From positions 2,294,001 through 2,358,000 of the forward strand of contig NC_014207.1 of assembly GCF_000093025.1 (NCBI RefSeq): a stretch of DNA of 64,000 nucleotides, given 5' to 3'. The translations under genes were made by a program, and so were the position numbers. Origin of the DNA: Methylotenera versatilis 301 (lineage in GTDB: Bacteria > Pseudomonadota > Gammaproteobacteria > Burkholderiales > Methylophilaceae). Shown one piece after another: positions 19,728 to 63,512 of this stretch (positions within the stretch are counted from its first letter, which is position 1; each line of letters begins with the position of its first letter). The notes under the pieces are model-generated. The model did no database searches and was not told where the DNA came from. It was given only the letters and a program-made list of their open reading frames with translations.

Positions 19728-20210
19728 GATTAACCTTATTAAGAATTTTAATACACGTCTTATGAGTGTTCAAACACAATAATGTTCTATTACTTTCAGA
19801 TTGATGTGTTAAAAAAATAGAAAATTAGGTAGGCTTCATGCAGTAGGTATGCTGATAAGTCACTATGAATCTCAATACCATCCAAAAAAACAACAAGACC
19901 CTGATTTTAACTCTCGATAATTCTCTAGATTTGTCGCTCGAAAAAACTACGCCTAAAACAATTACACACTCAAATTTAATAAAATATTATTCAGGGTTTA
20001 TCAGAACTAAACCTACACATTAAATATCAACAATTGTATACAATTCTGTATATAATAATTCAATATGTTACAAATTGTACAAAAGCTAAGATAAGCTAAT
20101 TACAGGGCTTAACTAATCACTAATTCGCATGAAATCAAGAATCTGTAACTTCTTGTTAATTCAACGAATTTAATATTTATAGATTATAAATTTACTAAAG
20201 GATGACTCAA
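19728..20210. promoter_or_regulatory. Upstream region of the PYP gene with operator-like palindromes
   Basis: This very AT-rich stretch contains a perfect 14-base palindrome AATTGTATACAATT (20032-20045), a TATAAT box (20051-20056) five bases later and a second related site TTGTACAA (20075-20082). The spacing suggests regulator sites on a promoter reading toward the photoactive yellow protein gene. An unconvincing 52-codon ORF without a ribosome-binding site lies at 19865-20023. Confidence 0.45.
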
Positions 20211-20591
20211 TTGAATCAAATTACATTCGATATGCTGAGCTTGGGACAAACATTGGATAAGTTGACTAATGACCAATTAAACTCTCTTGATTTTGGTGTC
20301 ATTGGTTTTGATAATGAAGGCATGGTGAAAGTTTATAATGCTTATGAATCAAAAGTTGCGGGACTTTCACTTGAGAGTGTGATTGACTCAGATTTATTTA
20401 ATAGCGTCGCCCCCTGTATGAATAACTTTATGGTGGCCCAAAAATTTGAAGATGCAGTAGATACTTCATCGGAGTTAGATGAAATTATGGATTATGTTCT
20501 AACCCTAAAAATGAAACCTACACGTGTAAAGTTGCGATTATTGAGTAGTCCCCAATTTTCGTATAGCTACGTTGTTATTCTTAGATCTTAG
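20211..20591 (+). CDS. pyp: Photoactive yellow protein (PYP) blue-light receptor
   Basis: This PAS-domain photoreceptor is expected to bind p-coumaric acid through a cysteine thioester. It aligns without gaps to my recollection of Halorhodospira PYP across the first 69 residues, including LDFGVIGFDNEG, VYNAYE and SVAPC. Tyr42, Glu46 and Cys69 are all present, and the MKPTRVK segment matches the Met100 region. I prefer the TTG start at 20211: it reproduces canonical numbering exactly and has AAAGGA eight bases upstream, whereas ATG 20202 abuts that box. Positions equivalent to Thr50 and Arg52 are Ala and Leu, so the photocycle may differ. The PAS-GGDEF gene starts 14 bases downstream. Confidence 0.93.
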   Translation: MNQITFDMLSLGQTLDKLTNDQLNSLDFGVIGFDNEGMVKVYNAYESKVAGLSLESVIDSDLFNSVAPCMNNFMVAQKFEDAVDTSSELDEIMDYVLTLKMKPTRVKLRLLSSPQFSYSYVVILRS

Positions 20592-20605
20592 TTACATTAT
20601 CGAAT

Positions 20606-21916
20606 ATGAGCGATGACTTAAAATCTGAATACGAATCACTGCTGCAATTTTTGTACATGGCACCTGTTGGACTCGTGCAAATGAAAAGTGATGGTGAAAT
20701 TGTGATGATTAACCCACTTTCGGCTCAGTTACTTTTGCCGATTGCACCAGACGGGGATCTATCAAATTTCTTTATCACTTTAGAAAATATAGCGCCTGAA
20801 CTGCAAAACCTCTGCTCTAGTTTCACTAAGAAAAGAGGTCAAATCTGTGATGCATTGCGTGTTCAGTTAACTGCTGGTATTCCGGGAAAAGAGGACCCTA
20901 AAGTACTGGCATTTAGCTTACTAAAACTTGATGCTGATCGCATTATGGCTGTGATTTCTGACGTGAGTTTATTGGCTAAACGAGAAAAGCAACTGCAGCA
21001 TAATGAAGCTTGGTTCAACGCCATTTTTAGTGGTGTTACTGAATATGCTCTTGTTAGCCTTGATAGCGATGGAAATATTGAAAATTGGAACGTCAGCTTA
21101 GAACGCTTGGGGAAATATACAGCGAATGAAGTTGAACACAAACCTTACTCTATATTTTTCCCTAAAGACTCTACCGATGAAGAACGTCTAAAAGATCGGC
21201 TGGCGGAAGCTGATGAAAACGGATGGAGTCTGTTTGAAAGTTGGTGCTTGAGAAGTGATGGTAGCCGATTCTGGGGGAGTAGTATTATTTCACCATTAGA
21301 AAATGCTCTCCATGAGCATTTTAACCCTCCTAGATATTCTTTGATTATTAGAGATATCACTGAAAAACGTAACTCAACTGAAGATCTTATTAAAGCAAGT
21401 TTTAATGATCACCTCACAGGTATTTCTAATCGCCGAGCATTCTTTGAGGTTGCCGGGATTGAATTTGAACGCTGCAAAAAAAGACCTCGTCCACTTTCCT
21501 TACTAGCCATTGATGCTGATCATTTTAAAAAGGTAAACGACACTTTCGGGCACGCAACAGGTGATGAGGTGTTGAAACACTTATCTGCAGTATTACAGGA
21601 TTGCGTGAGGGAAATGGATTTGGTTGCCAGAATAGGGGGCGAAGAGTTCAGTGCACTCTTACCATCAACAGATATGCAAGGTGCAATAAAAATTGCTGAA
21701 AGAATTCGAAGCTCTATTGCTGAATCGCTCTTAGAGGTGAATGGACAGAAGATTCGTTACACAGTAAGTATTGGCGTAAGTACAGTGAATGAAAATGTTA
21801 CAGGTATTGATATGTTGCTAAAAATTGCAGACGAAGCGCTTTATGCATCTAAACATGGTGGAAGAAATCGAGTGACTGCCATTCATCCTCAAGCAGTTAA
21901 AATCATTGATCAGTGA
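20606..21916 (+). CDS. PAS-PAS-GGDEF diguanylate cyclase
   Basis: This 436-residue cytoplasmic protein has two PAS-like domains (about 10-120, MAPVGLVQMKSDGEIVMINP, and 135-255, VSLDSDGNIENWNVSLERLG). A GGDEF domain follows (about 265-430) with active motif ARIGGEEFSAL and an inhibitory RxxD site (REMD) five residues before it. It should make c-di-GMP. It is the second gene of the operon behind PYP, so PYP is likely to control it by protein contact; this is an inference. Its last seven bases overlap the end of the convergent ligase gene. Confidence 0.93.
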   Translation: MSDDLKSEYESLLQFLYMAPVGLVQMKSDGEIVMINPLSAQLLLPIAPDGDLSNFFITLENIAPELQNLCSSFTKKRGQICDALRVQLTAGIPGKEDPKVLAFSLLKLDADRIMAVISDVSLLAKREKQLQHNEAWFNAIFSGVTEYALVSLDSDGNIENWNVSLERLGKYTANEVEHKPYSIFFPKDSTDEERLKDRLAEADENGWSLFESWCLRSDGSRFWGSSIISPLENALHEHFNPPRYSLIIRDITEKRNSTEDLIKASFNDHLTGISNRRAFFEVAGIEFERCKKRPRPLSLLAIDADHFKKVNDTFGHATGDEVLKHLSAVLQDCVREMDLVARIGGEEFSALLPSTDMQGAIKIAERIRSSIAESLLEVNGQKIRYTVSIGVSTVNENVTGIDMLLKIADEALYASKHGGRNRVTAIHPQAVKIIDQ

Positions 21917-23145
21917 GATTCAACATCTATAGACCAATCACATAGCTTACCCATTTTATTGGTAGCCAAACTTGAACCAATTTTTATTGACTTTGGTCTT
22001 TCATGAGGTAGCAAAACTAAATTTATGTGTGCATTCAAGCTCTCTAGTGCCTGAGATTCATCACCATTATCGTTAAAGACAATAAAAGCTTTTAGTCGAT
22101 TACCTTCCACTGGCCTCATCATTCTCACGCTAGCATCTTTTACTGCAGGGTGCGTTTTGAGTATGTCTCGGACATAATGCAACGAAACATTAATCCCTCC
22201 AATTTGGACAATGTCATCTTTACGTCCGATGACATTAAATTTGTTACTAGAAAACCAGTGTAGACGATCATGCAAATGAACGATGAATGATTGTCCATTC
22301 AAACTCACACGTTTAAGTTCGGAATCGAGTAACTGTTTTTCCCAAAATGGAAATAGTTTATAAGAATCTGAGGGGTGGTCTCGCCAACCTATTCCTGCAG
22401 TTTCGGATGCACCATACACTTCAAATAGCTTTGATAACCCACGATTTAATAAACTCAGTCCTATCTGTTCTAGGCAAGGTCCCGCTGAATTTACACCGAT
22501 AACATCCGCTGGTAATAAAACACCAGCTTCTTCAATATATTTCCAAAATTCAGGAAACCCCAACACGAGGTCTCCTGACGCCATAATTGATATTAGTGTA
22601 TTTGATGATAGCGCTCTAACATCAATAATCTCAATATTTGGGTTCAAATAACGTGGTAACAATATGCTGAAGATAAAACCATAAATATGGTGAGAAGGAA
22701 TAGCCAACAAAATGCGTTGGCGTCCTGGCAGTAGTTTAGCAAGAAATTGCGCCTCCTCCTCTAGGTCTTCTAACTGATGAGTACAATACTTTTTCAACCC
22801 TGTACTACCTGATGTTTTAAAAGATATACGCTCAGAAAAGATTTCTAAGCTGTGAAATACAATCGATTGCCAGTCTTTCAATCGGGTTTTATCAAGGAAA
22901 TTGTCTTTCAGATGGCTTTCATGTATGTGTATAGACCTCGCTAATGATGTCGATATACCCATTAACTCAAGTGAATCCATTTCCAAGCCATGATCGCCTA
23001 AAGCAATATTATCTTCGGCATCAATAAAGTTAACCTTTGTTGAAGTTGGTCTTAATGCAGCTAGCTCACCAAATACTAAATCATTAGTGAATCTTTGAAG
23101 AAGTTTCGGGTATTCAAACCATTGTTTATAGGGAAAAGCGTTCAT
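21910..23145 (-). CDS. 4-coumarate ligase, PYP-activation family
   Basis: This ~411-residue AMP-forming ligase carries the P-loop FKTSGSTGLKKYCTH, the YGASETAGIGWR motif, GRKDDIVQIGGINVS and a C-terminal NKMGKLCDW lysine. Proteins of this shortened type activate p-coumarate for attachment to PYP. The N-terminus contains ALGDHGLEMDSLELMGI, which resembles the DSL helix of acyl-carrier proteins. I start at ATG 23145; TTG 23163 is possible and neither has a clear ribosome-binding site. The start lies 27 bases after the ammonia-lyase stop. Together with that gene it would make and activate the chromophore for the convergently encoded PYP. Confidence 0.88.
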   Translation of the reverse strand: MNAFPYKQWFEYPKLLQRFTNDLVFGELAALRPTSTKVNFIDAEDNIALGDHGLEMDSLELMGISTSLARSIHIHESHLKDNFLDKTRLKDWQSIVFHSLEIFSERISFKTSGSTGLKKYCTHQLEDLEEEAQFLAKLLPGRQRILLAIPSHHIYGFIFSILLPRYLNPNIEIIDVRALSSNTLISIMASGDLVLGFPEFWKYIEEAGVLLPADVIGVNSAGPCLEQIGLSLLNRGLSKLFEVYGASETAGIGWRDHPSDSYKLFPFWEKQLLDSELKRVSLNGQSFIVHLHDRLHWFSSNKFNVIGRKDDIVQIGGINVSLHYVRDILKTHPAVKDASVRMMRPVEGNRLKAFIVFNDNGDESQALESLNAHINLVLLPHERPKSIKIGSSLATNKMGKLCDWSIDVESH

Positions 23146-23172
23146 TTGTCTATTGGTAAGCAAAAATTAATA

Positions 23173-24717
23173 TCATTTATGATGCGAATATAACGGCCAG
23201 ATTCGTAACCGAATTGCATTAAGTAAATCTTCCAATTCAGATTGCAGAGCCCTATCTTCAAAAACTAGCACTAGTATTTTTGAAAGGTCATCTATCATCA
23301 TATGTAGACGAGGATGCAGTGGAGCATGTTGAGGCATTTGTAATCTTAAACTCACGCCTTGATAGACCGCAACTAACATGCCCGCAGCAACCTGTTCTGT
23401 CAATTGGAGAATTCTCAGACAATCTCGACTGGCAATAGTGCCCATACTGACTTTATCTTGGTTATGACATTCTGTTGATCTGGAAAATACTGACGCCGGC
23501 ATAGTCAGTTTGAGCGCCTCAGCGGTCCATGCACTGACGCTAATTTGCAGTGCTTTAAGTCCATGACTCACTGCGGCGTCGGGCCCGCTATCTGCAGATA
23601 AATTAGCAGGTAGTCCATTGTTATAGCGTGTGTCGACCAGTAAAGCCATCTGTCTGTCCATCATGTCTGCTAAATTTGCAATCAAGTTTTTAAGACTATC
23701 CATGGCAAATGCAATGTGCCCGCCGTAAAAATGGCCTCCATGCATGACTTTTTGATTTTCGCCATCAATTACTGGATTATCGTTAACGCTATTAATTTCG
23801 TTTTCAATATGGCTTTTTATCCATGGTAAGGCATCTGCAAGCACGCCTATGATATGAGGTGCACAGCGAATCGAGTATCTATCTTGAATCCGGCCACTAT
23901 TTGATTTCTCTGGCAACACTAAATCTTCGCGTATCCAACTTGCGATATTTTCTTGACCTGAGTGTGGCTTCAGCGTGAACAAAAAAGCATCGAAGTGATT
24001 AGCGTTTCCATCTAAGGCATAAGAAGCCATAGAAGTAATACGCGTTGTTAACTCTTTTAGGTAATTAGCACGTGTGTATGCTTCACATGCAAGTGCAGTC
24101 ATTACCGATGTACCATTCATGAGTGCTAAAGCTTCTTTTGGTTGTAACTGTAGAGGCGCTAAACATGACAAACGAAGTGCATATTGTGCATCCATACGTT
24201 GATGTTTATAAATCACTTCACGTTCACCGCATAAAGCAGCTGCAAGATAAGAGAGCGGAGTTAAGTCACCGCTTGCCCCTACTGAACCTTCGGAAGGAAT
24301 TAATGGGGCTATACCTTCATTTAAAAATGCAATAATTTGACGTAATAGTAAAGGTCTGATGCCAGAAAAGCCTTTGCATAATGACGCCAATCGCACGACC
24401 ATGACAGCGCGAACTTGTGAATTGGACAAAAATTGACCCAAACCGCAGCCGTGGTAAGTATATAAATTTCGAGGTAGCTTAAAGACTAGATGTTCAGGAA
24501 TCACGACATTACATGAATCCCCATATCCAGTATTAATCCCATAAACAGGTGTGCCCTCTGACACAATTTGTAAAATGAAATCGGCTCCACGCTGAATAAA
24601 ATTTAAATATTCATCATTTTCGTTAAGATAAGTAACAATATTACTTTCTGATATATTAATAACGTCATCAATACCTACAAAGCCGTTATCAAATCTAAAC
24701 TGTTTATTGTCAATCAT
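23173..24717 (-). CDS. tal: Aromatic amino acid ammonia-lyase, probably tyrosine ammonia-lyase
   Basis: This 514-residue member of the histidine/phenylalanine/tyrosine ammonia-lyase family has the MIO-forming triad in GSVGASGDLTPLSYLA and the catalytic Tyr in PVYGINTGYGD. QDRYSIRCAPHIIG, NDNPVIDGENQ and the CHNQDKVSMG region are also present. In this context it should convert tyrosine to p-coumarate for PYP. The substrate-selectivity position reads Tyr-His (NLYTYHGCG), not the His-Leu pair of Rhodobacter TAL or Phe-Leu of PAL, so tyrosine specificity is inferred from the neighbours. It is not in a hut cluster. An EAL gene precedes it by 77 bases in the same direction. Confidence 0.87.
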   Translation of the reverse strand: MIDNKQFRFDNGFVGIDDVINISESNIVTYLNENDEYLNFIQRGADFILQIVSEGTPVYGINTGYGDSCNVVIPEHLVFKLPRNLYTYHGCGLGQFLSNSQVRAVMVVRLASLCKGFSGIRPLLLRQIIAFLNEGIAPLIPSEGSVGASGDLTPLSYLAAALCGEREVIYKHQRMDAQYALRLSCLAPLQLQPKEALALMNGTSVMTALACEAYTRANYLKELTTRITSMASYALDGNANHFDAFLFTLKPHSGQENIASWIREDLVLPEKSNSGRIQDRYSIRCAPHIIGVLADALPWIKSHIENEINSVNDNPVIDGENQKVMHGGHFYGGHIAFAMDSLKNLIANLADMMDRQMALLVDTRYNNGLPANLSADSGPDAAVSHGLKALQISVSAWTAEALKLTMPASVFSRSTECHNQDKVSMGTIASRDCLRILQLTEQVAAGMLVAVYQGVSLRLQMPQHAPLHPRLHMMIDDLSKILVLVFEDRALQSELEDLLNAIRLRIWPLYSHHK

Positions 24718-24794: not shown

Positions 24795-25610
24795 CTACCA
24801 ACGGTCTCTTGCCCGACGAGTTTTCACCTGTGGCCATACATCTTCCGGAATTTCGGGTAAAGATTCAAATCCAGGGCGGGCAAATAAGTATCCTTGGAAT
24901 AGTGTTACACCTTCATCAGCCAAAGTTAAGCATTCTTCCCTAGACTCAATACCTTCTGCAATCACACGGATATCTAGTGCTCTACATATTGAAAGTATGC
25001 CAAATACCAGTGCTCGTCTAACTCTGTCGGTATTAACGTTGCGTGTTAATGACATATCTAACTTGATAATATCTGGCTGCCAATCAGCCAGTAAATTCAG
25101 ACCCGCATAGCCCGCACCAAAATCATCAATCGCGGTAGTAAATCGATGTTTTTTGTATTCTACGAAGATGTTTCGTAGGTGATCATTATCTTGTACCTTC
25201 TCACCTTCTGTCACTTCGAACATAATTCTATCAGTGGGGAAATCCATCTCAGCAGCGGCTTCAAGCGTTGCGCGTATGCAAGTTTCAGGCTTGTAAACTG
25301 CATTGGGTAAAAAATTAATGCTTAACATACCTTGCAAACCGAGTTTTTTTGCTAAGTCGATAGATTTCACGCGTATTGCCTGATCAAATGCATATCTATT
25401 ACTGTCATTCAATTGAGAAAGTATTGTTGCAGCTCCCTCATTATTAACACCTCTGACGAGTGCCTCATACCCATAGATAGACTTATTAGATATATCAACA
25501 ATTGGCTGGAAAGCCATTGTAAAATCTATATTAAGCTTGGTTTTGTCTCGACACTCTTTACAGCCGACAGGAACAAAATTAACGAAGTCCATTATTTTTT
25601 TGATCTCCAT
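24795..25610 (-). CDS. Stand-alone EAL-domain c-di-GMP phosphodiesterase
   Basis: This protein of about 271 residues is almost entirely an EAL domain. All catalytic elements are visible: YEALVRG, LSINFLPN, FEVTEGE, AIDDFGAGYAGL, IIKLDMSL, IAEGIES and FQGYLFARP. It should hydrolyse c-di-GMP. Just before the domain is a short VGCKECRD motif with two cysteines spaced CxxC. It is a clear paralogue of the EAL protein at 26812-27609. The start is uncertain: ATG 25610 is given, with 25664 and 25592 as alternatives. It is the likely first gene of the EAL-lyase-ligase operon, downstream of the BLUF gene. Confidence 0.9.
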   Translation of the reverse strand: MEIKKIMDFVNFVPVGCKECRDKTKLNIDFTMAFQPIVDISNKSIYGYEALVRGVNNEGAATILSQLNDSNRYAFDQAIRVKSIDLAKKLGLQGMLSINFLPNAVYKPETCIRATLEAAAEMDFPTDRIMFEVTEGEKVQDNDHLRNIFVEYKKHRFTTAIDDFGAGYAGLNLLADWQPDIIKLDMSLTRNVNTDRVRRALVFGILSICRALDIRVIAEGIESREECLTLADEGVTLFQGYLFARPGFESLPEIPEDVWPQVKTRRARDRW

Positions 25611-25664
25611 ACAAATGTGACTAAAAAGTTGCCCATCTGATTTACATAAAACATTTACAACCAC

Positions 25665-25993: not shown

Positions 25994-26407
25994 TTAGTTT
26001 TTAAAAATTTTAAGTAGCGTAACTGCGGGCGATGCTGAGCCAATTTTTCGATCTGTTTTTGCTGCTTCAATCACCTCAACTAGCTCATCATATTTGTCAG
26101 CTTGTCGATCATCTAGATTAGTCATATTCATAGTCCAGCGTGTAAATGTACGGAATTTTGCTGGTTCGTTGTATATGATACGGGAGTTTTTATGACGTGG
26201 ATCTTTCTCAATTTTAATGTACAGTTTGGATAAGGTCTCTATCGGCCCCTCTAGTACTTGCAAAAACCAACCGCCGTTATAAAACAGGCTTCCTGTCACA
26301 TCGATTTTTGCATTATTTTCCTGAGCTGTAGTATGAATTTGAAGCAGCTCAGAGTTGGACATCTTGCGTGTAGCTTGACTGATATAGATTAATTGATTGA
26401 TTGACAT
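25994..26407 (-). CDS. Stand-alone BLUF-domain blue-light photoreceptor
   Basis: This 137-residue flavin photoreceptor consists of a BLUF domain (about 3-95) plus a short helical tail. The residues of the flavin switch are in register with the well-studied PixD protein: Tyr8 (QLIYISQ), Asn31/32, Gln50 (GGWFLQVLEG), Trp91 and Met93 (FTRWTMNM). It should bind FAD and respond to blue light. It lacks an output domain and lies between two paralogous stand-alone EAL genes. That arrangement recalls the PapB (BLUF)-PapA (EAL) pair of Rhodopseudomonas palustris, so direct control of one or both EAL proteins is a good hypothesis. Confidence 0.95.
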   Translation of the reverse strand: MSINQLIYISQATRKMSNSELLQIHTTAQENNAKIDVTGSLFYNGGWFLQVLEGPIETLSKLYIKIEKDPRHKNSRIIYNEPAKFRTFTRWTMNMTNLDDRQADKYDELVEVIEAAKTDRKIGSASPAVTLLKIFKN

Positions 26408-26811: not shown

Positions 26812-27609
26812 TCACGTATCACACCAAGATTTTGGGTCAACTACTCCTTTTGCCATAAAAGCAGGCTTACAAAAAAGATATCCTTGAAAAAGATTAATAC
26901 CAAAGTCAACTAGCACATCTCTTTCAGCTGTGGTTTCAATTCCTTCGGCAATTACTAGTACATTCAATTCTTCACACATACGTGTCACAGCTTTAGTGAT
27001 AATGCGGCGAGACTTACTTGTATCAAGATCGCGAATTAAATCCATGTCGATCTTGATAATGTCAGGTTGAAAACTAGCTAATAGGTTTAAACCAGCGTAA
27101 CCTGCGCCAAAATCATCCAGTACAGTTTTAAACCCTAATTTCTTATATTCATTCACAATATTTATAAGATGTTTTGTATCTTTAATTATTTCTTGCTCTG
27201 TAAATTCAAAAATAATGTTATTTGCAGGAAAGTTGTATTTTTTTGCAGCTGCTAATGTAGTGCTTATACATAGTTCAGGCCTATATACGGCATTAGGCAT
27301 AAAATTAATTGATAACATTTCCTTAAGCTTCAATTCGGCTGCAGATTTAACAGCCTTGACTCGACATGCTTGATCAAAACGGTATGTGTTGTCGTTATTT
27401 ACTTTACTTAAAATAGTATGTGCGCCTTCGCCATTCGGACCTCTGATTAATGCCTCATGAGCAAATATAGCCTTAGTACTAACGTCCACAATAGGTTGAA
27501 ACGCATATTCAAAGTCAAAATCTAATTCGATAGTATTTTTACAGCCAACACATGAATGTGACACAGCTTTAGATTGTTTATGTATATGGTGCGTTGAGAG
27601 GTGGCTCAT
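26812..27609 (-). CDS. Stand-alone EAL-domain c-di-GMP phosphodiesterase (paralogue)
   Basis: This is a 265-residue EAL protein with a complete catalytic set: HEALIRG, LSINFMPN, FEFTEQE, VLDDFGAGYAGL, IIKIDMDL, IAEGIET and FQGYLFCKP. The N-terminus has SCVGCKNT, a Cys motif parallel to VGCKEC in the paralogue at 24795-25610. The two proteins align along their length and probably arose by local duplication around the BLUF gene. It is transcribed toward the BLUF gene on the same strand with a 400-base gap, so it is probably a separate transcript. Confidence 0.92.
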   Translation of the reverse strand: MSHLSTHHIHKQSKAVSHSCVGCKNTIELDFDFEYAFQPIVDVSTKAIFAHEALIRGPNGEGAHTILSKVNNDNTYRFDQACRVKAVKSAAELKLKEMLSINFMPNAVYRPELCISTTLAAAKKYNFPANNIIFEFTEQEIIKDTKHLINIVNEYKKLGFKTVLDDFGAGYAGLNLLASFQPDIIKIDMDLIRDLDTSKSRRIITKAVTRMCEELNVLVIAEGIETTAERDVLVDFGINLFQGYLFCKPAFMAKGVVDPKSWCDT

Positions 27610-27777: not shown

Positions 27778-30318
27778 TTAGTGTGTTGAGTCAATAAAAT
27801 TCTTATTTCTTTTCATAAAGTAGTTTTCAAATTCTTTAGGGGCTAAGGGTTTACTAAACCAATAGCCTTGACCATAATCACAACCCGCAGAAATCAATAA
27901 CTCAAGTTGCTCTTCAGTTTCAATTCCTTCAGCAATCACCTTTATTCCTAACTTATGTGCCATTTCTATCATAGTTTCACATAATGTTAAGTCTTCAGAT
28001 CCTGAAGATATATTGCTTATAAATGATCTATCAATCTTAATATAGTCAATATCGTATTTTTTTAAATACGTTAATGACGAATACCCTGTTCCAAAATCAT
28101 CAAGTGAAATTCCAATATTTGCTTCACTATATTTCATTAATAAATTCTTGATGGAGGCGTCTGCGTTTAAAACTAAGCCTTCTGTAATCTCAATCACTAT
28201 ACTTTCGCCTGGAAGATCTAACTCCCTTAAAAAATCAAACCATTCTTTAAAGCCCTGTCTTTTATGGGTAAACTGTACTGGTGATTTATTAATACTAATT
28301 TGAAAATTATGAGCCAAAATATTTCGCCAGCACTTAACTTGATTACAGGCTTCATAAAACACCCAGTCACCAATTTCTACAATTAAACCAGTAATCTCAG
28401 CAATTGGAATAAACTCGATAGGACTTATTGCACCGCGCTTTGGATGTTGCCATCTAATTAAAGCCTCTGCTTTATGAATAAATCCAGTCGATAACTCGAC
28501 AATTGGCTGATATACCAAGCTGAATTGCTTTTCTTCGATCGCAACACGTAACTCATTCGTAAGTTGTAATCGATTTTGGGCAGCTACTTGCATATCGGAT
28601 GTAAAGTAGCTATGACGATTACGTCCTTGAAGTTTTGCCTGATACATGGCTTGATCTGAATTTTTCAACATATCCTCAGATAAGTTAGTATCGTCAGGAT
28701 AAATTGTAAGACCTATGCTGACTGTCAAAAAGATCTTATTTTCTTCCAATTTGAATGGTTCGGATAATGCTTTTAATAGTTTTTGTGCGACTACTTCTGC
28801 GGTATTATTATCCTTTAAATTACTGATAATTATAGTAAATTCATCCCCACCTAATCTAGAAACTGTATCAATATCTCTTACGGAATTTATTAAACGTTGC
28901 GCAACTTGTTTCAGTAATTCATCACCTGCGCTATGACCAAGAGTGTCATTGACCTCTTTAAAATTATCTATATCTAATAAAGCTAAAGCAAATTTTTTAC
29001 CGTTTAGAACTGCGCTTTTAACTTCATGTTCCAGTCTGATGTTGAAATAACGACGATTAGGTAGCTGGGTGAGTGCGTCATAGTTTGCCTGAAATTCGAT
29101 TGTTTGCTCTGCTTTTTTGCGTTCTGTGATATCAGTAAACGTAACTAGGATTCCTATAACACAAGTATCTGTATCCTTTAATGGAACCTTGCTTGTTTGT
29201 AACCACCCAGACTCCCCGTTAACCTTTTTAAAAGGCACTTCATAATTGAGTTTTGAATTACCCGTTCTGATAACTGTATAGTCGTCTTGACTATATAGTT
29301 CATTATACTCAGTGAATAAATCTTCACTCTTTTTACCTACAATTTCATTAATATGACTTAAGCCTACATCTTTTAGAAATAATTTATTTGCTCCTAAAAA
29401 ACGTAATTCTCGATCTTTCCAAAAAACTCGCACTGGTACATTATCTATGACTGATTGCAACATGCTTTCAGAAACTAGAAGCTTTTCTTTGAATGCCTCC
29501 AAACTCTCAAATGGAGCGCGAACACTGCTAATGAAAACCACACGGTAAATTAACAAATAAGCACTAATTTTATATAGGTGGCCTAAAAGTTGAAAAATAT
29601 CTGTAAAGCTATGAAAATTAACAAAAGATAGCTCGCTAAGTATCGTGACGCATGAGGCTCCAAATAGACTATAAATATCATATCGAGGCATCTTTTCCTG
29701 CCTAGTGCTTTTGTAAAACAAAAATGCCGCGATTGATAGTAAGCCTGAAATTATATATTCTGAACCAATCTTGAAGGCTGTTAAACCACTACCTTCTACA
29801 AAAGTTCTTGGCCAAAGATCTTGATGATAAATACCTAGCCAAGCGGTCAAGAATGTTACTGAAAGACTTATTCCAATAAAAATATATGGTGAACTCTTTT
29901 TCTGAAAAGGTTGCCATGGATTCACTGCAACTGTGAGCAAGGTTATTGCTGCTATTAAACGCGCTACAAGCCAAAAGTTAATGGTTTTTTCTGGACCTGA
30001 TGGAGTAATGAAATCTGGCATTCCGGTAAATGAAAGAAGATGTAAAAAGTCTATCAATCCAACGCTTAGCAGACCACATGCTAAGATAATTAAATTACTA
30101 TCCCTTTCAACTTTGTAAGAGTTCCAAGTGACGCCAAACACAAACATGGCAACCATGATTGAAAACATCTCACAAGTAATATGTATCCATAATGGCATAA
30201 ATTTAATTTGCGACATTGATGGCGGTTGAGGCATTAACCATAAGATTATGAATAAAATAGCCATGCTTGCTATACTGGCATTTATCAGTTTTTCGCTGAC
30301 TTTAGATTGTTTAGCCAT
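27778..30318 (-). CDS. MASE3-PAS-GGDEF-EAL membrane protein
   Basis: In this 846-residue protein residues ~10-265 form a multi-helix membrane sensor of MASE3 type (GLLSVGLIDFLHLLSFTGMP, FWLVARLIAA). A PAS domain follows (~285-405, VPVRVFWKDRELRFLGANK). Next is a GGDEF domain (~405-565, RDIDTVSRLGGDEF with the RxxD inhibitory site), then an EAL domain (~585-830). EAL residues include KAEALIRWQHP, SINKSPVQF, IEITEG, LDDFGTGYSSL and VIAEGIET. Both output domains look catalytically competent, so the net direction cannot be predicted. Confidence 0.93.
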   Translation of the reverse strand: MAKQSKVSEKLINASIASMAILFIILWLMPQPPSMSQIKFMPLWIHITCEMFSIMVAMFVFGVTWNSYKVERDSNLIILACGLLSVGLIDFLHLLSFTGMPDFITPSGPEKTINFWLVARLIAAITLLTVAVNPWQPFQKKSSPYIFIGISLSVTFLTAWLGIYHQDLWPRTFVEGSGLTAFKIGSEYIISGLLSIAAFLFYKSTRQEKMPRYDIYSLFGASCVTILSELSFVNFHSFTDIFQLLGHLYKISAYLLIYRVVFISSVRAPFESLEAFKEKLLVSESMLQSVIDNVPVRVFWKDRELRFLGANKLFLKDVGLSHINEIVGKKSEDLFTEYNELYSQDDYTVIRTGNSKLNYEVPFKKVNGESGWLQTSKVPLKDTDTCVIGILVTFTDITERKKAEQTIEFQANYDALTQLPNRRYFNIRLEHEVKSAVLNGKKFALALLDIDNFKEVNDTLGHSAGDELLKQVAQRLINSVRDIDTVSRLGGDEFTIIISNLKDNNTAEVVAQKLLKALSEPFKLEENKIFLTVSIGLTIYPDDTNLSEDMLKNSDQAMYQAKLQGRNRHSYFTSDMQVAAQNRLQLTNELRVAIEEKQFSLVYQPIVELSTGFIHKAEALIRWQHPKRGAISPIEFIPIAEITGLIVEIGDWVFYEACNQVKCWRNILAHNFQISINKSPVQFTHKRQGFKEWFDFLRELDLPGESIVIEITEGLVLNADASIKNLLMKYSEANIGISLDDFGTGYSSLTYLKKYDIDYIKIDRSFISNISSGSEDLTLCETMIEMAHKLGIKVIAEGIETEEQLELLISAGCDYGQGYWFSKPLAPKEFENYFMKRNKNFIDSTH

Positions 30319-30355
30319 GTATTATCAATCTCAATACAAACATATTTTTTAGCCT

Positions 30356-33300
30356 CTAGTCTATCTGCGTAGCAGCAGACTTTAAGATTTGCATTTTAGT
30401 TCTAATCAAATAATCAAATTCATCAATCTGAACTGGTCTACTGAACAGATACCCTTGGTATTGCACACAGCCATTGTCCAACAAGAATTGCTTTTGTTCA
30501 TCAGTTTCTACACCCTCAGCAATGACGTCAATGCCCAAGCTATGTGCCATAGTAATGATAGTGCGCACAATCGCTGCATCACTTTTATCAGTGGCAATAT
30601 CACGTACAAAGGACTGGTCTATCTTCAATTGAGACAATGGGAGCATTTTGAGATATTGTAATGAAGAGTAGCCTGTACCAAAGTCATCTAATGAGAAAAT
30701 AACTCCTATTTTGCTAAGCGCATTCATTTTGGTAATAATGTCATTGATGTTATACACCAACATACTTTCTGTCAGCTCCAGTTTAAGATACGTAGGATTA
30801 ACATCATACTTTTGTAAGGTTGCCTTTACTTGATCGACAAAGTCCACTTGAAAGAACTGCTTGGCACTCACATTGACAGCGAGCAGCAGGTTTTGAGTAA
30901 GTGGGATCTGTTGCCATGTTTTAAGTTGGGCGCAGGCCGTGTCAAGTACCCATTGCCCTATCTGTAAAATCAGCCCGGTTTCTTCGGCTAAGGTAATGAA
31001 GTTATATGGAGGGATCATGCCGCGCTCTGGGTGTTGCCAACGGATTAAGGCTTCTGCTCCAAATGCTTGTCCAGTGCTAGAAACTTGAATTTGATAATGC
31101 AATTGGAATTGTTGTTCTTGAATGGCTTTACGCAGTTCGTTTTCAAGATCAACACGTGCAGCAATAGCTTCTTGCATTTTTGGGTCGAAGAAACATAGCG
31201 TATTCCGACCTTCGTTCTTAGATTGATACATAGCAATATCAGCTTGCTTTAACAGTTCGTCTATCTCCAGCTCATGACCAACGAACAATGTAGCTCCTAT
31301 ACTGGCAGTGTTATGGTAGATATTTGTTTTAAGTTGATAAGGCTGATTGAGTGTAATAATCATTTTTTCAGCGATATCTTTAGTTTGAGCTGCTGCTTCA
31401 AAGGCATGTTCGCTTAAGTCAGCTAGCAGCACAACAAACTCATCTCCACCGAAACGAGCTACAGTATCACCTTCACGAATGCAGCTCGTTAATCTACTGG
31501 CTACTGCTTGCAAGAGTGTATCTCCAACATCATGTCCGAGCGTGTCATTCAGTTTTTTAAAGTGGTCCAAGTCCAGAAACAATAATGCGCCTCGGCGACT
31601 ACTTCGGGCACTGCTAGCTAAAGCCTGTTTAAGTCTATCTAAGAGCAAGCGTCGATTGGCTAAATTAGTGAGCGTGTCATAGAGTGCTAAAATGTTATTT
31701 TTTTCTTCAGCGGCCTTGCGTTGAGTGATATCAGTCCGAATAGAGATGTAACTTTTTGGCTTGCCGTCATCTGCCATAAAAGGAGTAATTGTTGTGTCTA
31801 CCCAGTACAAGTGACCATCTTTAGTGCGATTGCAGATTTCATCATGCCAAGGTTTACCAGTTGCTAATGTCAGGTACATTTCTTTGAAGAACCCTTTTGG
31901 ATGATAGCCAGAACTCAATATATGGTGATCTTGGCCCAATAACTCTTCTTCAGTATAACCACTGATTTTACAGAACTTAGAATTAGCATAGGTAATGATA
32001 CCCTGTACATCTGTCACAGATACGATGGCATGTTCATCGACTGCAGACTTCTGGTATTTAAGTTCGGCTAAAGATTGTTTGGCAGATAGTTCGCTTATAC
32101 TAAGTGCAAGCTCAGCTTGTTTGCGCTCAGTAATGTCTCTAAGCACTGCAAAATTAAACTCTTTACCGTTAAGATTGATATAGTTTGCACTGACCTCGAC
32201 AGGGAATATACGACCGTTTTTTGTACGGTGTCGGGTTTCAAGTGATATTGATCCGCGCCGACTGAGGTCTTCAAAGTGGGGGGTCCATATGCCTGGCTGG
32301 TAATCAGGGTCTAAGTCAAAAATTCTCATCTGCAACATCTCTTTTAGGGAGTATTCGCGCTCCATGCATGCAGCAAGATTCACGTAGAGGATATGACCCT
32401 CTCGGTTAATCCAAAATATGCTGTCATGAGCATTGTCAACGCTGAACCTCATCATCTCTAAGGATTCTTCAGCCTGCTTACGTTCACGATGGCGTAAGTA
32501 AAGTATATATCCCAATATACAGATAAATATCAAAACAATAGGCATGAGGTATTTCAGTAAATCAACCACCCCAATTTCTTTCAACTCATATACACCAAAC
32601 CATTTGTCATATAAGTTGTTATAGACTCCATTGGCTTTGGTAACCGCCAGACCTTCATCAATTTTACCTAATAGTTCTGATTGACCTGTATGAACTGCAA
32701 ATGCAAATCTTTGCGTGAATCCAGCCTTAGCTTTTAACGCTTTAATATTATCCAGCTTAAGTGAATGCAAAGTCTGTAGACCAACGACTTTGTTGATCAA
32801 CATAGCATCGTGGCTACCAGAGGCTAACATTTGCATACCTTCTGCCGCAGCCTCTACAAACACTAACTGATTATTCCATCCTCTTGACGTAGCATAGTTA
32901 GCCTCGACATCGTCTTTCATCATAATGATGGATTTGCCTTTAAGGTCAACCTCGGAGTTGATATTTGATTCGTTATTACGAACAAAGATACCTCCATTAA
33001 AAACAGAATGTGGTACAGAAAAGTCCGCATATACGTGGGCCTCATCGGTGACGTTGAGGTTTATCAGGACATCAATCTTTCCTGATTTAAATTCATCAAG
33101 TAACTGGTGGAAAGGTAAAACACGAATGTGGTAATTTAAACCGGCTTCTGATGCAACTGCTTTCCACAACTCAACGGTAAAGCCACCAGCAGACTCATCA
33201 CTCATGCCTGTAGCAAAAGGCGGGAAGTCCTGCTCGCTTCCAACGATGAGGGTTGCTTTTTGTAATTGATTTACTGGAAGAGGTTTTTGTACTTTAAAAC

Positions 33301-33466
33301 TGGTTGGGAGATTTTGTATGAGCGCATATGCGATGCTATTTACAAATAATGAGAGAATTAATGCCATTAGGAAACGTAGCATTTTTTTGCACATCTGTGC
33401 TTTAGCTGGCCGGCACAATTTTTCAGCAATTCGAGCATCTAATTCTTGAGTATTTATAGTGCTCAT
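30356..33466 (-). CDS. Periplasmic solute-binding-PAS-PAS-GGDEF-EAL receptor
   Basis: This 1036-residue transmembrane receptor has an N-terminal hydrophobic segment (~30-50). A family-3 solute-binding domain (~70-300, FPPFATGMSDESAGGFTVEL) resembles amino acid binding proteins. A second membrane helix (~305-327, MPIVLIFICILGYILYL) precedes two PAS domains (~340-585). GGDEF (~595-750, REGDTVARFGGDEF) and EAL (~770-1025, GAEALIRWQHP, LDDFGTGYSSL, IAEGVET) follow. It probably couples sensing of an extracellular ligand to c-di-GMP turnover. Both catalytic domains retain key residues. The ligand is unknown. Confidence 0.93.
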   Translation of the reverse strand: MSTINTQELDARIAEKLCRPAKAQMCKKMLRFLMALILSLFVNSIAYALIQNLPTSFKVQKPLPVNQLQKATLIVGSEQDFPPFATGMSDESAGGFTVELWKAVASEAGLNYHIRVLPFHQLLDEFKSGKIDVLINLNVTDEAHVYADFSVPHSVFNGGIFVRNNESNINSEVDLKGKSIIMMKDDVEANYATSRGWNNQLVFVEAAAEGMQMLASGSHDAMLINKVVGLQTLHSLKLDNIKALKAKAGFTQRFAFAVHTGQSELLGKIDEGLAVTKANGVYNNLYDKWFGVYELKEIGVVDLLKYLMPIVLIFICILGYILYLRHRERKQAEESLEMMRFSVDNAHDSIFWINREGHILYVNLAACMEREYSLKEMLQMRIFDLDPDYQPGIWTPHFEDLSRRGSISLETRHRTKNGRIFPVEVSANYINLNGKEFNFAVLRDITERKQAELALSISELSAKQSLAELKYQKSAVDEHAIVSVTDVQGIITYANSKFCKISGYTEEELLGQDHHILSSGYHPKGFFKEMYLTLATGKPWHDEICNRTKDGHLYWVDTTITPFMADDGKPKSYISIRTDITQRKAAEEKNNILALYDTLTNLANRRLLLDRLKQALASSARSSRRGALLFLDLDHFKKLNDTLGHDVGDTLLQAVASRLTSCIREGDTVARFGGDEFVVLLADLSEHAFEAAAQTKDIAEKMIITLNQPYQLKTNIYHNTASIGATLFVGHELEIDELLKQADIAMYQSKNEGRNTLCFFDPKMQEAIAARVDLENELRKAIQEQQFQLHYQIQVSSTGQAFGAEALIRWQHPERGMIPPYNFITLAEETGLILQIGQWVLDTACAQLKTWQQIPLTQNLLLAVNVSAKQFFQVDFVDQVKATLQKYDVNPTYLKLELTESMLVYNINDIITKMNALSKIGVIFSLDDFGTGYSSLQYLKMLPLSQLKIDQSFVRDIATDKSDAAIVRTIITMAHSLGIDVIAEGVETDEQKQFLLDNGCVQYQGYLFSRPVQIDEFDYLIRTKMQILKSAATQID

Positions 33467-33672
33467 TTATGAATCATTTCAGATTGTCTAAATTCTTTAA
33501 TAATTAAATGCACTATTGATAATAATTATATCGTAGTGTCCTTACCAAGAAAATAATCAATAAGTAATCAGTGGTTTTATGCGTCAATTCATCAATTTAG
33601 AAGAACTATATGTATTAAGGTTTTTATGCTCAGCTTTTATATCATTTAAAGGTTCTAGTTATCTATTCTAAA

Positions 33673-35130
33673 CTAAGCTAGTAAAGCTCGATTTCTTCCC
33701 TGCTCTTTAGCCTGATATAACGCATCATCAGCCATTTTAACTAAAACATCAGACTTCTGTGAGCCCTGTGGCGTAATGGATGCCACACCTACACTGACTG
33801 TCACATAGCCAAAAGTAGATAATTCGTGAGGTAATGCAAGGCTATGAAGTGCCTCACAGATTTTCCGTGAAATCTCAAGAGCTTGATCACCGCTAATTGC
33901 CGGTGCTATAAATACAAACTCTTCACCACCGTAACGTGCAACCAGATCACCAGTACGACATAAATTAGAAGCAAGAATATTGCTAACTCTTCGCAAACAT
34001 TCATCACCTGCTTGATGTCCATAGTGGTCGTTATATCGCTTGAACCAGTCAATATCTAGCATCGCAAGAGCTAGAGGTTGGTTTGCCCTTTTTGCTCGCA
34101 TCCATTCGATTTCTAACACATCATCAAAGCTGCGGCGATTGGCAATACCAGTTAGTCCATCAGTTTTGCTTAGCCCCTCTAGCTTGTGATTAAGTAATTG
34201 CAACTCATCAGTTCGTTTAGAAACACGATCCTCAAGCTCACGTTCATTATCGCGAATACGAGATAGTAGTGTAGCGAAACCCATACTTGCGATACTGAGT
34301 ATTGCTATAAATTCTTGGGCGTGCAAAATGGTCAAAGATATTGATAAATTACCGAAAGGATTTCGCCCTGCAGTAATTACTAATGCCAAAGCAAAAGAGA
34401 CAATAAACACTGCAATAGCAGTACATTTTAAATCTGTACGAGCGGCTAAGTACAGCATAGAGGGAAGCAAAAGTGTCGGGGTAATTACTACCCCTAAAAA
34501 GAGACCATTTTCGCCAAACGTTAGCATTAATAGCAAAGCAGTACTAATCACAGCAACTATTAAGTCAATCCGAATCAAGGGCTTAATTGGCTGGGATTTG
34601 TAATAAAGAAGGGATAATAATAAAGGTATTCCAATTATCAAACCTAAAGCATCACCGAACCACCAAACTTGAACTATGGATAAATACCCTCCAGTATCGA
34701 CTCCAAAAAATTTGATAATTGCGGCACCAATAAGAGCTCCAATTAGCGACGCAATAAACGGTCCTGCCACAATAAATTTGATGACATCTTCTAGCTTATA
34801 TAGCGAAGGAGACATGCTGACTTTACGCATAATAAGGTAGGCTAATGTTACTTCGATAGTGTTAGTAACACCCAACATTAGCCCTTCATACCAAGGAAAT
34901 GTAGGCACATCAGCAGCAATTTCAGCTGCTATCGCAAAAAGTATGAAAACCCAGTAACGCTGACCACGATAATAGAGTAATGCTGTTAAAGTAAAAGCAT
35001 TAGCTAACCAAATAATCACGGTGCCTTCAGGTGTCATCGCTAAACCTAAACAGAGCTTAACACTGATGAAATAGGCGAGTGGTAAGAATAGGTAACTATA
35101 GAAGCTGGGAGTTGGTATGGACTGTTTCAT
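33673..35130 (-). CDS. MASE1-GGDEF diguanylate cyclase
   Basis: This 485-residue membrane protein has about eight N-terminal helices of MASE1 type (LAMTPEGTVIIWLANAFTLT, GPFIASLIGALIGA). A short coiled region (RIRDNERELEDRVSKRTDEL) leads to a C-terminal GGDEF domain (~320-485) with RTGDLVARYGGEEF. The RxxD inhibitory site is present and the active site is intact. It is the last gene of the c-di-GMP cluster. Confidence 0.93.
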   Translation of the reverse strand: MKQSIPTPSFYSYLFLPLAYFISVKLCLGLAMTPEGTVIIWLANAFTLTALLYYRGQRYWVFILFAIAAEIAADVPTFPWYEGLMLGVTNTIEVTLAYLIMRKVSMSPSLYKLEDVIKFIVAGPFIASLIGALIGAAIIKFFGVDTGGYLSIVQVWWFGDALGLIIGIPLLLSLLYYKSQPIKPLIRIDLIVAVISTALLLMLTFGENGLFLGVVITPTLLLPSMLYLAARTDLKCTAIAVFIVSFALALVITAGRNPFGNLSISLTILHAQEFIAILSIASMGFATLLSRIRDNERELEDRVSKRTDELQLLNHKLEGLSKTDGLTGIANRRSFDDVLEIEWMRAKRANQPLALAMLDIDWFKRYNDHYGHQAGDECLRRVSNILASNLCRTGDLVARYGGEEFVFIAPAISGDQALEISRKICEALHSLALPHELSTFGYVTVSVGVASITPQGSQKSDVLVKMADDALYQAKEQGRNRALLA

Positions 35131-57057: not shown

Positions 57058-57120
57058 ATACCGTCACTTAAGGCGGTACTGTTGACGGTATCGAGCAATT
57101 ATTGCTTAGGGATACCGTCA
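57058..57120. repeat. Three ATACCGTCA motifs upstream of the integrase gene
   Basis: ATACCGTCA occurs at 57058-57066 and 57112-57120 and inverted (TGACGGTAT) at 57083-57091, all before the integrase start. They could be integrase or excisionase arm sites or an operator. Confidence 0.6.
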
Positions 57121-57122
57121 AG

Positions 57123-58358
57123 ATGCTTACAGACATACAAGCGAAAGCCAAACAACACAAAGACAAAGATGGAAAAATAAAGGTCGCACCTTACAAGGTG
57201 ACGGATGAAAAAGCTCTTTATTTATTAGTTCAAGCTAATGGTAGCAGGCTTTGGCGACTAGATTATCGCTTTGACGGCCTCAGAAAAACTTTTGCAATAG
57301 GTTCTTACCCTGATGTATCACTAGCGCAGGCTAGAGAGCAAAGAGACAGCGCTCGCAAGCTTTTATCTAACGACCCACCGATAGACCCGAATGAAAATCG
57401 CAAGGCCATTAAAGCTACTAAAAAATTAGGTGCTGAAAATAGTTTTGAAGTGGTTGCCCGCGAGTGGTGGTTGTCACATATGAAAGGCAAAGCAGACAGT
57501 CATAAAGAAAAAGTAATCAGACGCTTTGAACTTTATTTATTCCCGTGGATAGGTAGAAAGCCTATTGCAGAAATAACGGCACCGCAAGTATTAGAGGCTA
57601 TAAAGCGCATTGAGAAACTAAACATACTGGAAACAGCACATAGAACGTTACAGACGGCTGGTCAAGTATTTAGATATGCAGTCCAGACAGGTCGCGCAAT
57701 TCGTGACGTAACTGCTGACCTTAAAGGCGCTTTGCCAGCCACGACAGTAAAGCACATGGCTTCATTTACCGAACCCAAAGATGTTGCCGAACTATTGAGA
57801 GCCATTGAAGGCTTTGCTGGTACGTTTACAGTGCAATGCGCCCTTAGATTATCGCCGTTGGTATTTGCACGACCTAGCGAACTTAGAATGGCTAAATGGT
57901 CTGATATTGATTTAGATACAGGCATTTGGCAATACTTAGTTAGCAAAACCAAAACAGACCATTTAGTGCCATTATCTACTCAAGCAGTAGCTATTTTACG
58001 AGAACTTCACCCATTGTCAGGGCATGGTAAATACGTTTTTATGGGCGGTCATTCACCACTTAAACCAATGAGCGAAAGTGCGGTAAATGCAGCATTAAAA
58101 CGCATGGGATACGACACTCAAAAAGATATCACCGCGCATGGGTTTAGAGCAATGGCTAGAACAATACTACACGAGAGATTAAATATTGACCCGCATATCA
58201 TTGAACATCAGTTAGCACATCGTGTACCTGATAACTTGGGTGGAGCATACAACCGAACTAGGTTTATTGACCAGCGAAAAGTCATGATGCAACAATGGGC
58301 TGATTATTTAGACGAGCTTAAAGCTGGTGCAAAGGTATTACCTTTTAAACAGGCTTAG
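57123..58358 (+). CDS. P4-type tyrosine site-specific integrase
   Basis: This ~411-residue recombinase has an N-terminal arm-binding domain (KALYLLVQANGSRLWRLDYR, FAIGSYPDVSLAQARE) and a SAM-like core-binding domain (~100-190). The catalytic domain has Arg in ARPSELRMAKW, HGFRAMART, HQLAHR and Tyr in YNRTRF. I start at ATG 57123; the TTG at 57102 lies in the repeat-bearing leader. It presumably integrates the element into tRNA-Met. Confidence 0.93.
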   Translation: MLTDIQAKAKQHKDKDGKIKVAPYKVTDEKALYLLVQANGSRLWRLDYRFDGLRKTFAIGSYPDVSLAQAREQRDSARKLLSNDPPIDPNENRKAIKATKKLGAENSFEVVAREWWLSHMKGKADSHKEKVIRRFELYLFPWIGRKPIAEITAPQVLEAIKRIEKLNILETAHRTLQTAGQVFRYAVQTGRAIRDVTADLKGALPATTVKHMASFTEPKDVAELLRAIEGFAGTFTVQCALRLSPLVFARPSELRMAKWSDIDLDTGIWQYLVSKTKTDHLVPLSTQAVAILRELHPLSGHGKYVFMGGHSPLKPMSESAVNAALKRMGYDTQKDITAHGFRAMARTILHERLNIDPHIIEHQLAHRVPDNLGGAYNRTRFIDQRKVMMQQWADYLDELKAGAKVLPFKQA

Positions 58359-63300: not shown

Positions 63301-63512
63301 TTTATATCAATGAAACTCAGTATTTTGAGGGCGTGCCAAAGTTAGCGTGGGAGTTTTATATCGGTGGCTACCAACCTGCGCAAAAATGGCTAAAAGACCG
63401 TAAAGGGCATACATTAGGCTATGAGGATATTGTGCACTATCAAAAAATCATCAAAGCAATGGTTGATACTGATAGGTTAATGCAAGAGATTGACCAATAT
63501 AATGTCATTTAG
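60345..63512 (+). CDS. Single-chain restriction-modification enzyme (type ISP/IIG-like)
   Basis: In this 1055-residue protein the N-terminal nuclease (~1-150) carries a PD-ExK signature (GAPDY at 51-55 and IEAK at 67-70). A helical coupler follows (~150-350, IHFYETFLAEYDPKLRKSRG, VWYTPEPVVSFIVRAVDD). The N6-adenine methyltransferase has motif I LDPATGTGTFLA (~381) and motif IV GNPPYSG (~500). The C-terminal ~450 residues should hold target recognition. No SF2 helicase motifs are visible, unlike classical LlaBIII-type ISP enzymes, so a IIG-like mechanism is possible. As nuclease and methylase are on one chain it could protect the host alone. Confidence 0.9.
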   Translation: MNIQQYIGNVSSLFNTGNSTEHSYRGDLQQLLTSILKDVAVTNEPKRIECGAPDYILTRKDVPIGYIEAKDVGVKLGDKIHKEQFDRYKAALNNLVITDYLEFHFFKNGVLVNSVSIATIENGKIFAKPDSFDRFTALFENFALQITQTIKSPSTLAQMMAAKAKLMAQVIKSALDEDGKAQRSTDLQGQMAAFKSILIHDIDNTSFADIYAQTIAYGLFAARYHDPSLETFSRQEAATLIPQSNPFLRKLFQYIAGYELDIRLTWLVDELVSIFLATDVASVMHNFGKSTRQHDPIIHFYETFLAEYDPKLRKSRGVWYTPEPVVSFIVRAVDDILKTHFKLPLGLADTSKTKVTIEAIQAGSKGKLVKSEHELHKVQILDPATGTGTFLAQTVRHIYNSQFAKMQGAWSGYVKEHLIPRLNGFELLMTSYAMAHLKLDMLLTETGYKPEGNPERLRIYLTNSLEEHHPDTGTLFASWLSTEANEANHIKRDAPVMVVMGNPPYSGHSSNKGEWIEALLESYKKEPTGGKLQETNSKWLNDDYVKFIRYGQHFIDKNGEGVLAFITNHSYLDNPTFRGMRWALMQSFDDIYILDLHGNAKKKETAPDGGKDENVFDIQQGVSIAFMVKTGKKAKGASANIWHSEIFGKREYKYNYLNQSDINLINTRLKPSIPHYAWVERDETELVNYSLGFSIQALFPINSVGIVTARDNFTIHHSKEAVKKTIQKFLSINDDIARNEFSLGADVRDWKVAYARADLEKSEVNFDKYLSKISYRPFDDRFTYYTGHSKGFHCMPRGAVMRQLQGADNLGLVALRQVKTGDSYCHCFITKYIFESCLVSNRTSEIGYGFPLYIYPDTKDMLSDASRTPNLNMQIVKAIATSLQLTFTPEKTDNANAFSPIDLLDYIYAVLHSPTYRETYKEFLKIDFPRVPYPSDIKQFWLLVALGNELRQLHLLEDTAINQLITRYPEGGNNLVDKPRYDDGKVYINETQYFEGVPKLAWEFYIGGYQPAQKWLKDRKGHTLGYEDIVHYQKIIKAMVDTDRLMQEIDQYNVI

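Follow-up and report, generated by a model that had tools for sequence, protein, structure and literature searches.

We analysed 64,000 nucleotides of the genome of Methylotenera versatilis 301 (positions 2,294,001 to 2,358,000 of NC_014207.1; we call this whole stretch the window). It holds a gene for a photoactive yellow protein (PYP) of a divergent clade, followed by a gene for a diguanylate cyclase with an N-terminal domain (NTD), a second PAS domain and a GGDEF domain. Genes for a CoA ligase and an aromatic amino acid ammonia-lyase converge on this pair from the other strand (Table 1). A first-pass annotation had named these four genes, and all of them are present, with small shifts in coordinates. 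We propose that the locus is a self-contained blue-light input to cyclic di-GMP (c-di-GMP), in which the PYP would signal in trans to a dedicated domain, the NTD, and we put the probability of this at a little over 60%.

The PYP and the cyclase do appear to form an operon, as first annotated: the cyclase starts 14 nt past the stop codon of PYP. The GGDEF domain of the cyclase matches the Pfam family (154.8 bits, E = 2.2e-45), and its GG(D/E)EF active site and RxxD inhibitory site (I-site) are intact (REMDLVARIGGEEF). The 3' ends of the cyclase and the ligase overlap by 7 nt, and the lyase lies before the ligase with a gap of 9 nt. The partner had been described as a PAS-GGDEF cyclase, which is right. 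The informative part of the protein is the NTD, which is common to partners with differing outputs.

Distribution and fold of the N-terminal domain

Among 399 genomes from the same order, 12 have a match to PYP and 11 have the NTD (E <= 1e-6), and all 11 are among the 12 (hypergeometric P = 1e-20, ignoring relatedness). The twelfth genome (G161) has only distant PYPs, which are 28-31% identical. In these genomes, 21 of the 22 copies of the NTD lie by a PYP. We also scanned a collection of 84,980 species, each represented by a single genome, using the one motif QF[LV]Y[LRM]AP[VI]G, so that only NTDs that retain the motif are seen. (All counts out of 80 are for the best 80 of 119 confirmed loci.) PYP is directly upstream of the NTD protein in 78 of the 80 loci, and the remaining two loci start at contig ends. 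Across the 78 loci, the stop codon of PYP is -4 to 37 nt from the partner's nearest in-frame start (a choice of start that is biased toward small gaps). The pairing of the two genes is not due to chance, as it recurs in 78 loci.

The same linkage is seen on plasmids. Of 72,556 plasmid records, 11 hold the NTD (E <= 1e-8), and all 11 also hold a PYP, out of 13 records that do. These 11 records are from beta- and alphaproteobacteria. We fetched 10 of them, with flanks of 4 to 6 kb, which gave 11 loci, and H7 was judged from match tables. Some of the loci are near copies of each other (L196 and L201; apparently also L199 and L204, and L200 and L203).

We did not find the NTD in 40 other genomes of the genus or in 368 genomes of the class other than the window's (E <= 1e-5 for both), nor in 268 genomes of the phylum (E <= 1e-8). 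(The draws for these searches overlap, and in candidate-rich genomes scoring was limited to 11 or 15 candidates.) PYPs of other kinds are present in six of the 369 genomes drawn from the class, in five cases beside a ligase-like gene, and no NTD lies within the 3 kb examined around them. In other words, the NTD accompanies this clade of PYPs, not PYPs generally. Among the matches listed, the closest relative of the pair is in a metagenome-assembled genome from the Methylophilales (L066; PYP 76% and cyclase 77% identical), which fits the initial suggestion of a methylotroph-like host. Neither the PYP nor the NTD was found in the sampled sister genomes, and either a gain here or a loss in the sisters may account for this.

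Three kinds of output come after the NTD: PAS-GGDEF, GGDEF-EAL, and histidine kinase (HisKA-HATPase). Because it sits on all three, the NTD is probably the receiver domain for PYP. A second stretch of NTD, on a partner of the GGDEF-EAL type, is found in 69 of the 80 loci. In six loci from Massilia or Pseudoduganella (L127, L137, L141, L123, L142, and L143), either NTD-PAS and NTD-GGDEF-EAL are joined in one frame or the first partner lacks GGDEF.

The NTD has no Pfam match (the best was to PAS_9, with E = 0.21, in 1 of the 18 members scanned). A deeper profile of the NTD weakly matches the PAS-bearing VicK and WalK chains (whole-chain E of 0.014 and 0.14). In a structural model of the partner, the strands and helices of the NTD come in the order expected for a PAS domain and are followed by a long connector helix, and the best structural matches to the model are PAS-GGDEF-EAL, DosP, and GGDEF structures. 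Profile-profile comparisons of the NTD to the second PAS domain, to PYP, and to a kinase near the PYP of Comamonadaceae OTU4NAUVB1 gave no convincing match. Overall, the NTD is predicted to be a divergent PAS domain.

The PYP and its probable chromophore genes

When aligned to the PYP of Halorhodospira halophila, the window's PYP has Y45, E49, and C72 at the positions of Tyr42, Glu46, and Cys69, and these three residues are invariant in 20 aligned PYPs of the clade. In a second alignment, the Glu and Cys are present in all 14 clade rows, and one member (L195) has Phe at Tyr42. The structural model of the window's PYP (mean predicted local distance difference test, or pLDDT, of 83.2) is most similar to solved PYPs, with a template modelling (TM) score of about 0.85 for the best matches, and its 40 best structural matches are all PYPs or derived from PYP. 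Relative to the aligned canonical PYPs, the clade has its own letters in two places: a CMNNFMVAQRFED-like stretch after the chromophore cysteine and a TLRMRP-like stretch further on. This suggests that the two stretches might form the docking face of the PYP.

PYPs like these are hard to recognize. The window's PYP scores 77.9 bits against TIGR02373, below the equivalog cut-off of 143.05, which is a curated threshold for naming rather than for mechanism. All 20 of the clade members that we scanned match this model at E <= 0.001, with a best value of only 3e-25. In public records, the clade's PYPs in L193, L194, L195, L196, L201, and L202 are labelled "phosphonate transporter", and because of this label they are missed by searches on names. 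Together, the low score, the weak E values, and the misleading names suggest that such PYPs are easily overlooked. Another 11 matches to TIGR02373 were rejected as cross-matches to PAS domains (frames of 504-1520 amino acids and E values of 6e-7 or worse).

The lyase and the PYP-type ligase, which were first annotated as lying convergent to the pair, are indeed on the minus strand. The lyase matches Lyase_aromatic from Pfam (518.5 bits, E = 2e-155) and has the Ala-Ser-Gly of the MIO (4-methylideneimidazole-5-one) motif, within GASGD. It is 58% identical to two proteins from Glaciimonas and 60% identical to one from Methylibium, each of which adjoins genes for a canonical PYP and a ligase, and it is 36% identical to a homologue from Indioceanicola. 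On the Indioceanicola plasmid (L198), pyp, ligase, lyase, a second PYP, and an NTD cyclase lie in one run on one strand. The curated models that score the lyase best are for histidine ammonia-lyase, and they score under cut-off. Histidine lyase has Ser-His at the selectivity pair, while the three aligned PYP-linked lyases from Glaciimonas and Methylibium share the Tyr-His of the window's enzyme. From its sequence, the enzyme is probably a tyrosine ammonia-lyase. As for the ligase, its best match is to TIGR02372 (4-coumarate-CoA ligase), at 276.8 bits, short of the cut-off of 334.7, and the next model scores just 51.2 bits. It is 37-41% identical to the five PYP-linked homologues that we compared.

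Ligases are more common than lyases at these loci. We found the ligase in 31 of the 80 genome loci and 9 of the 11 plasmid loci, and the lyase in 3 and 1. (The ligase was not found in the other 49 genome loci, some of which have short flanks.) In published surveys, a lyase is in 7 of 113 pyp operons (PMC12826048) and within five genes of at least 10% of functional PYPs (PMC9664959). (Here and below, statements about published papers refer to the parts of those papers that were covered.) Mutating His89 to Phe turns the tyrosine lyase of Rhodobacter sphaeroides toward phenylalanine (PMC9002059). For the closest relative, a ligase-like gene (L163) was considered as the PYP ligase and rejected: it is only 28-34% identical, and by eye, it adjoins a gene for a phosphopantetheinyl transferase-like protein. 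The first-pass annotation held that the window could make the chromophore from tyrosine. This is plausible, as likely chromophore genes are nearby, and the gene set for PYP and chromophore looks self-contained; the uncertain part is the lyase's specificity, given the selectivity pair considered below.

Proposed mechanism and its alternatives

The direct observations are the gene order, the catalytic residues, the near-exclusive linkage of the NTD to this clade of PYPs, the three kinds of output, and the recurring EAL neighbour. In the mechanism that we propose, the lyase would convert tyrosine to p-coumarate, and the ligase would activate the p-coumarate for attachment to Cys72 of PYP. The PYP would signal in trans to the NTD at the front of the cyclase that is encoded by the adjacent gene. 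When the PYP binds to the NTD or is released from it, the signal would travel along the connector helix and through the second PAS domain until it reaches the GGDEF dimer, where it would alter the synthesis of c-di-GMP. The neighbouring EAL phosphodiesterase might set the opposing arm. (If Idiomarina loihiensis is a guide, c-di-GMP would fall in blue light, but this is a guess.) Judging by the genes, a functional unit of PYP, cyclase, and phosphodiesterase is very likely, and a putative direct contact between the PYP and the NTD is likely.

More broadly, the NTD could be a PAS domain that is specialised to read a stand-alone PYP in trans: a module found on cyclases, cyclase-phosphodiesterases, and histidine kinases in beta- and alphaproteobacteria, and partly hidden by the frequent annotation of its PYPs as hypothetical proteins, PAS proteins, or phosphonate transporters. 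We consider this to be somewhat better than an even bet. If so, the relay of signals by single-domain PYPs becomes a question of binding between two small proteins, via a domain of 135 residues, and the NTD could be plugged into engineered cyclases and kinases as a receiver for light signals.

Several findings weigh against these proposals. One copy of the NTD (G200:C41) is 29% identical, has EDDEF in place of GG(D/E)EF, and has no PYP that we could find beside it. Conversely, the PYP of OTU4NAUVB1 (L193) has the clade's signature and a long PAS protein convergently downstream, and we found no NTD either in the 4 kb around it or elsewhere on the plasmid (at E <= 1e-8). The closest relative (L066) has the PYP, the cyclase, and an EAL protein, with no lyase or ligase beside them. 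Where the tyrosine lyase of R. sphaeroides has His89-Leu90, the window's lyase has Tyr-His, and the window's PYP has Ala53 and Leu55 instead of the equivalents of Thr50 and Arg52. (The Ala and the Leu are each found in at least 90% of the 20 clade PYPs.) The models of the partner are uneven, with a mean pLDDT of 83.7 for the best of five and 64.6-69.7 for the rest, and no structure in the fold search was matched by the NTD on its own.

We dropped the co-divergence of PYP and NTD as evidence, since a test with more controls lost the specificity for the NTD. The first test started from 79 entries, of which 78 were complete in all four parts and 64 remained once redundant ones were removed; the partial correlation with PYP distances was 0.35 for the NTD (reached by 0 of 2000 permutations), 0.21 for the second PAS domain, and 0.04 for GGDEF. 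In the second test, with 65 loci that had all parts and 58 that were kept, the values were 0.17 for the NTD, 0.22 for the second NTD, 0.15 for EAL, and 0.12 for GGDEF. Chromosomal nearness could explain the first result.

The NTD might instead be an independent PAS domain for sensing or dimerisation, with its own ligand, and PYP might be co-transcribed with it for a shared light response, without contact. PAS domains commonly bind ligands of their own, the co-divergence is not decisive, and the copy in G200:C41 lacks an adjacent PYP. Still, in the samples we searched, the NTD is nearly absent where PYP is absent, it is reused next to PYP on three outputs, and PYP is directly upstream in both beta- and alphaproteobacteria, so we think this explanation is unlikely. 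It is less likely again that the clade is now light-blind and that its PYPs are structural or redox adaptors for the cyclase. The changes at Thr50 and Arg52, the score below the equivalog cut-off, the Phe in L195, and the 49 loci without an identified ligase (some short-flanked) would fit with that idea; the conserved Tyr, Glu, and Cys in 20 clade PYPs (with Glu and Cys in 14 of 14 rows of the second alignment) and the ligases and lyases at genome and plasmid loci argue against it.

Slightly less probable than the adaptor is that the lyase and the ligase serve another pathway, such as the breakdown of histidine or phenylpropanoids, and are here by chance. That would account for the histidine ammonia-lyase models scoring best (below cut-off) and for the closest relative having neither gene beside the pair. 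It does not sit well with the 58-60% identity of the lyase to proteins encoded beside PYP and ligase in Glaciimonas and Methylibium, with 4-coumarate ligase as the top model for the ligase, or with the single run of genes in Indioceanicola. The explanation that we prefer is signalling from PYP to the NTD, with a chromophore that would be made by the adjacent genes.

Neighbouring genes and known systems

The system was first annotated as 20211..24717, which covers the four genes and leaves out two EAL genes and a BLUF gene. Family scans back each of the seven proteins, from PYP through the second EAL protein.

Table 1. Features of the locus, in window positions
Feature	Position	Strand	Remarks
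PYP, divergent clade	20202..20591	+	129 aa; open reading frame call and TIGR02373 match
Diguanylate cyclase, NTD-PAS-GGDEF	20606..21916	+	436 aa; active site GGEEF, I-site REMD
NTD (cyclase residues 1-135)	20606..21010	+	PYP-linked PAS-like domain; candidate PYP receiver
CoA ligase, PYP-associated 4-coumarate kind	21910..23163	-	TIGR02372 match
Aromatic amino acid ammonia-lyase, probable tyrosine ammonia-lyase	23173..24717	-	MIO motif ASGD; selectivity pair Tyr-His
Stand-alone EAL phosphodiesterase, RimA-like	24795..25664	-	below cut-off of RimA model
BLUF blue-light receptor	25994..26407	-	upstream of EAL gene
Second RimA-like EAL phosphodiesterase	26812..27609	-	cassette membership uncertain

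Both EAL genes and the BLUF gene share the lyase's strand, and the first EAL gene is 77 nt before the lyase gene. (By eye, from its relatives, its true start is probably 25592 or 25610.) Both stand-alone EAL proteins match EALxR, DDFGxG, Lys, and Glu, which we take to be the motifs of EAL phosphodiesterases. In the closest relative (L066), the protein encoded next to the cyclase is homologous to the first EAL protein of the window (86% identical over 224 residues), with an interrupted frame. An EAL-bearing gene is beside the pair in 10 of the 11 plasmid loci, and it is a stand-alone RimA-like protein in 7 of the 11. Among the 80 genome loci, where a GGDEF-EAL partner is usual, only L066 has the stand-alone kind. 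A BLUF gene adjoins a homologue of the window's first EAL in three sister genomes, and in G004 a more distant homologue of the EAL adjoins a BLUF gene. Five other sister loci are nearer to the second EAL; one of these has BLUF about 1.2 kb away, and no BLUF was found in the stretch examined for the other four. BLUF is present in 6 of the 80 genome loci. The window unites a PYP-cyclase pair with a BLUF-EAL pair.

The genome is a single contig of 3,059,871 bases. We considered whether the whole locus was transferred recently in one piece: the G+C content per 1000 bases is 0.32-0.41 over 15000-37000, without a clear step. Scans found 29 promoter-like sites (34.6 expected) and 8 terminator-like sites (5.0 expected), from which we draw no conclusion. 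Three further GGDEF proteins are in a row at 27778-35130; Pfam assigns the first as MASE3-PAS-GGDEF-EAL, and the other two were assigned by eye. Of the 46 places in the genome with GGDEF, 4 are within about 15 kb (0.23 expected; this count is post hoc). By eye, there is a tyrosine-type integrase at 57102-58358 and a large DNA methyltransferase-like protein at 60345-63512, perhaps from a mobile island.

The partners and outputs of PYPs had been described in the first-pass annotation as poorly known. This is only partly so: GGDEF is linked to 29 of 113 pyp operons (Dohmen et al. 2025, PMC12826048), PYPs of "clade C" often adjoin GGDEF genes (Xing et al. 2022, PMC9664959), and both papers already propose a role in c-di-GMP signaling, while signal relay by single-domain PYPs is described as still unknown (PMC9664959). 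Like the window, these pairs have a single-domain PYP that adjoins a GGDEF gene, with light control of c-di-GMP proposed. Unlike in the window, a shared N-terminal domain in the partner is not mentioned in the parts of these papers that were covered, and we found no description of one in the corresponding parts of PMC6848086 and PMC10468136 or in the openly accessible literature that we searched. So, PYP-GGDEF operons were already known, and an NTD that is common to partners with different outputs appears to be new, as far as the literature searched shows.

The pyp-pcl-tal operon of H. halophila also has genes for PYP, ligase, and lyase (PMC12826048), and the window differs from it by the divergent clade of its PYP, the cyclase partner, the Tyr-His lyase, and the convergent order. 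In Idiomarina loihiensis, PYP causes a drop in biofilm formation in blue light and is tied to a GGDEF-based biofilm response (cited in PMC12826048), and the window's PYP is likewise paired with a GGDEF protein; the Idiomarina PYP is placed in clade A in the text of PMC9664959 and grouped with clade C homologues in a figure legend. BLUF is reported in two pyp operons, both from Caballeronia sp. SBC2 (PMC12826048). The plasmid cassette of that strain (L195 and L196) resembles the window in having a PYP, an NTD-PAS-GGDEF protein, a stand-alone EAL, and a ligase, and differs in having a second, canonical PYP and no lyase in the stretch examined. BlrP1 is reportedly a light-controlled phosphodiesterase of the BLUF-EAL type, and the window likewise brings BLUF and EAL together, as separate genes.

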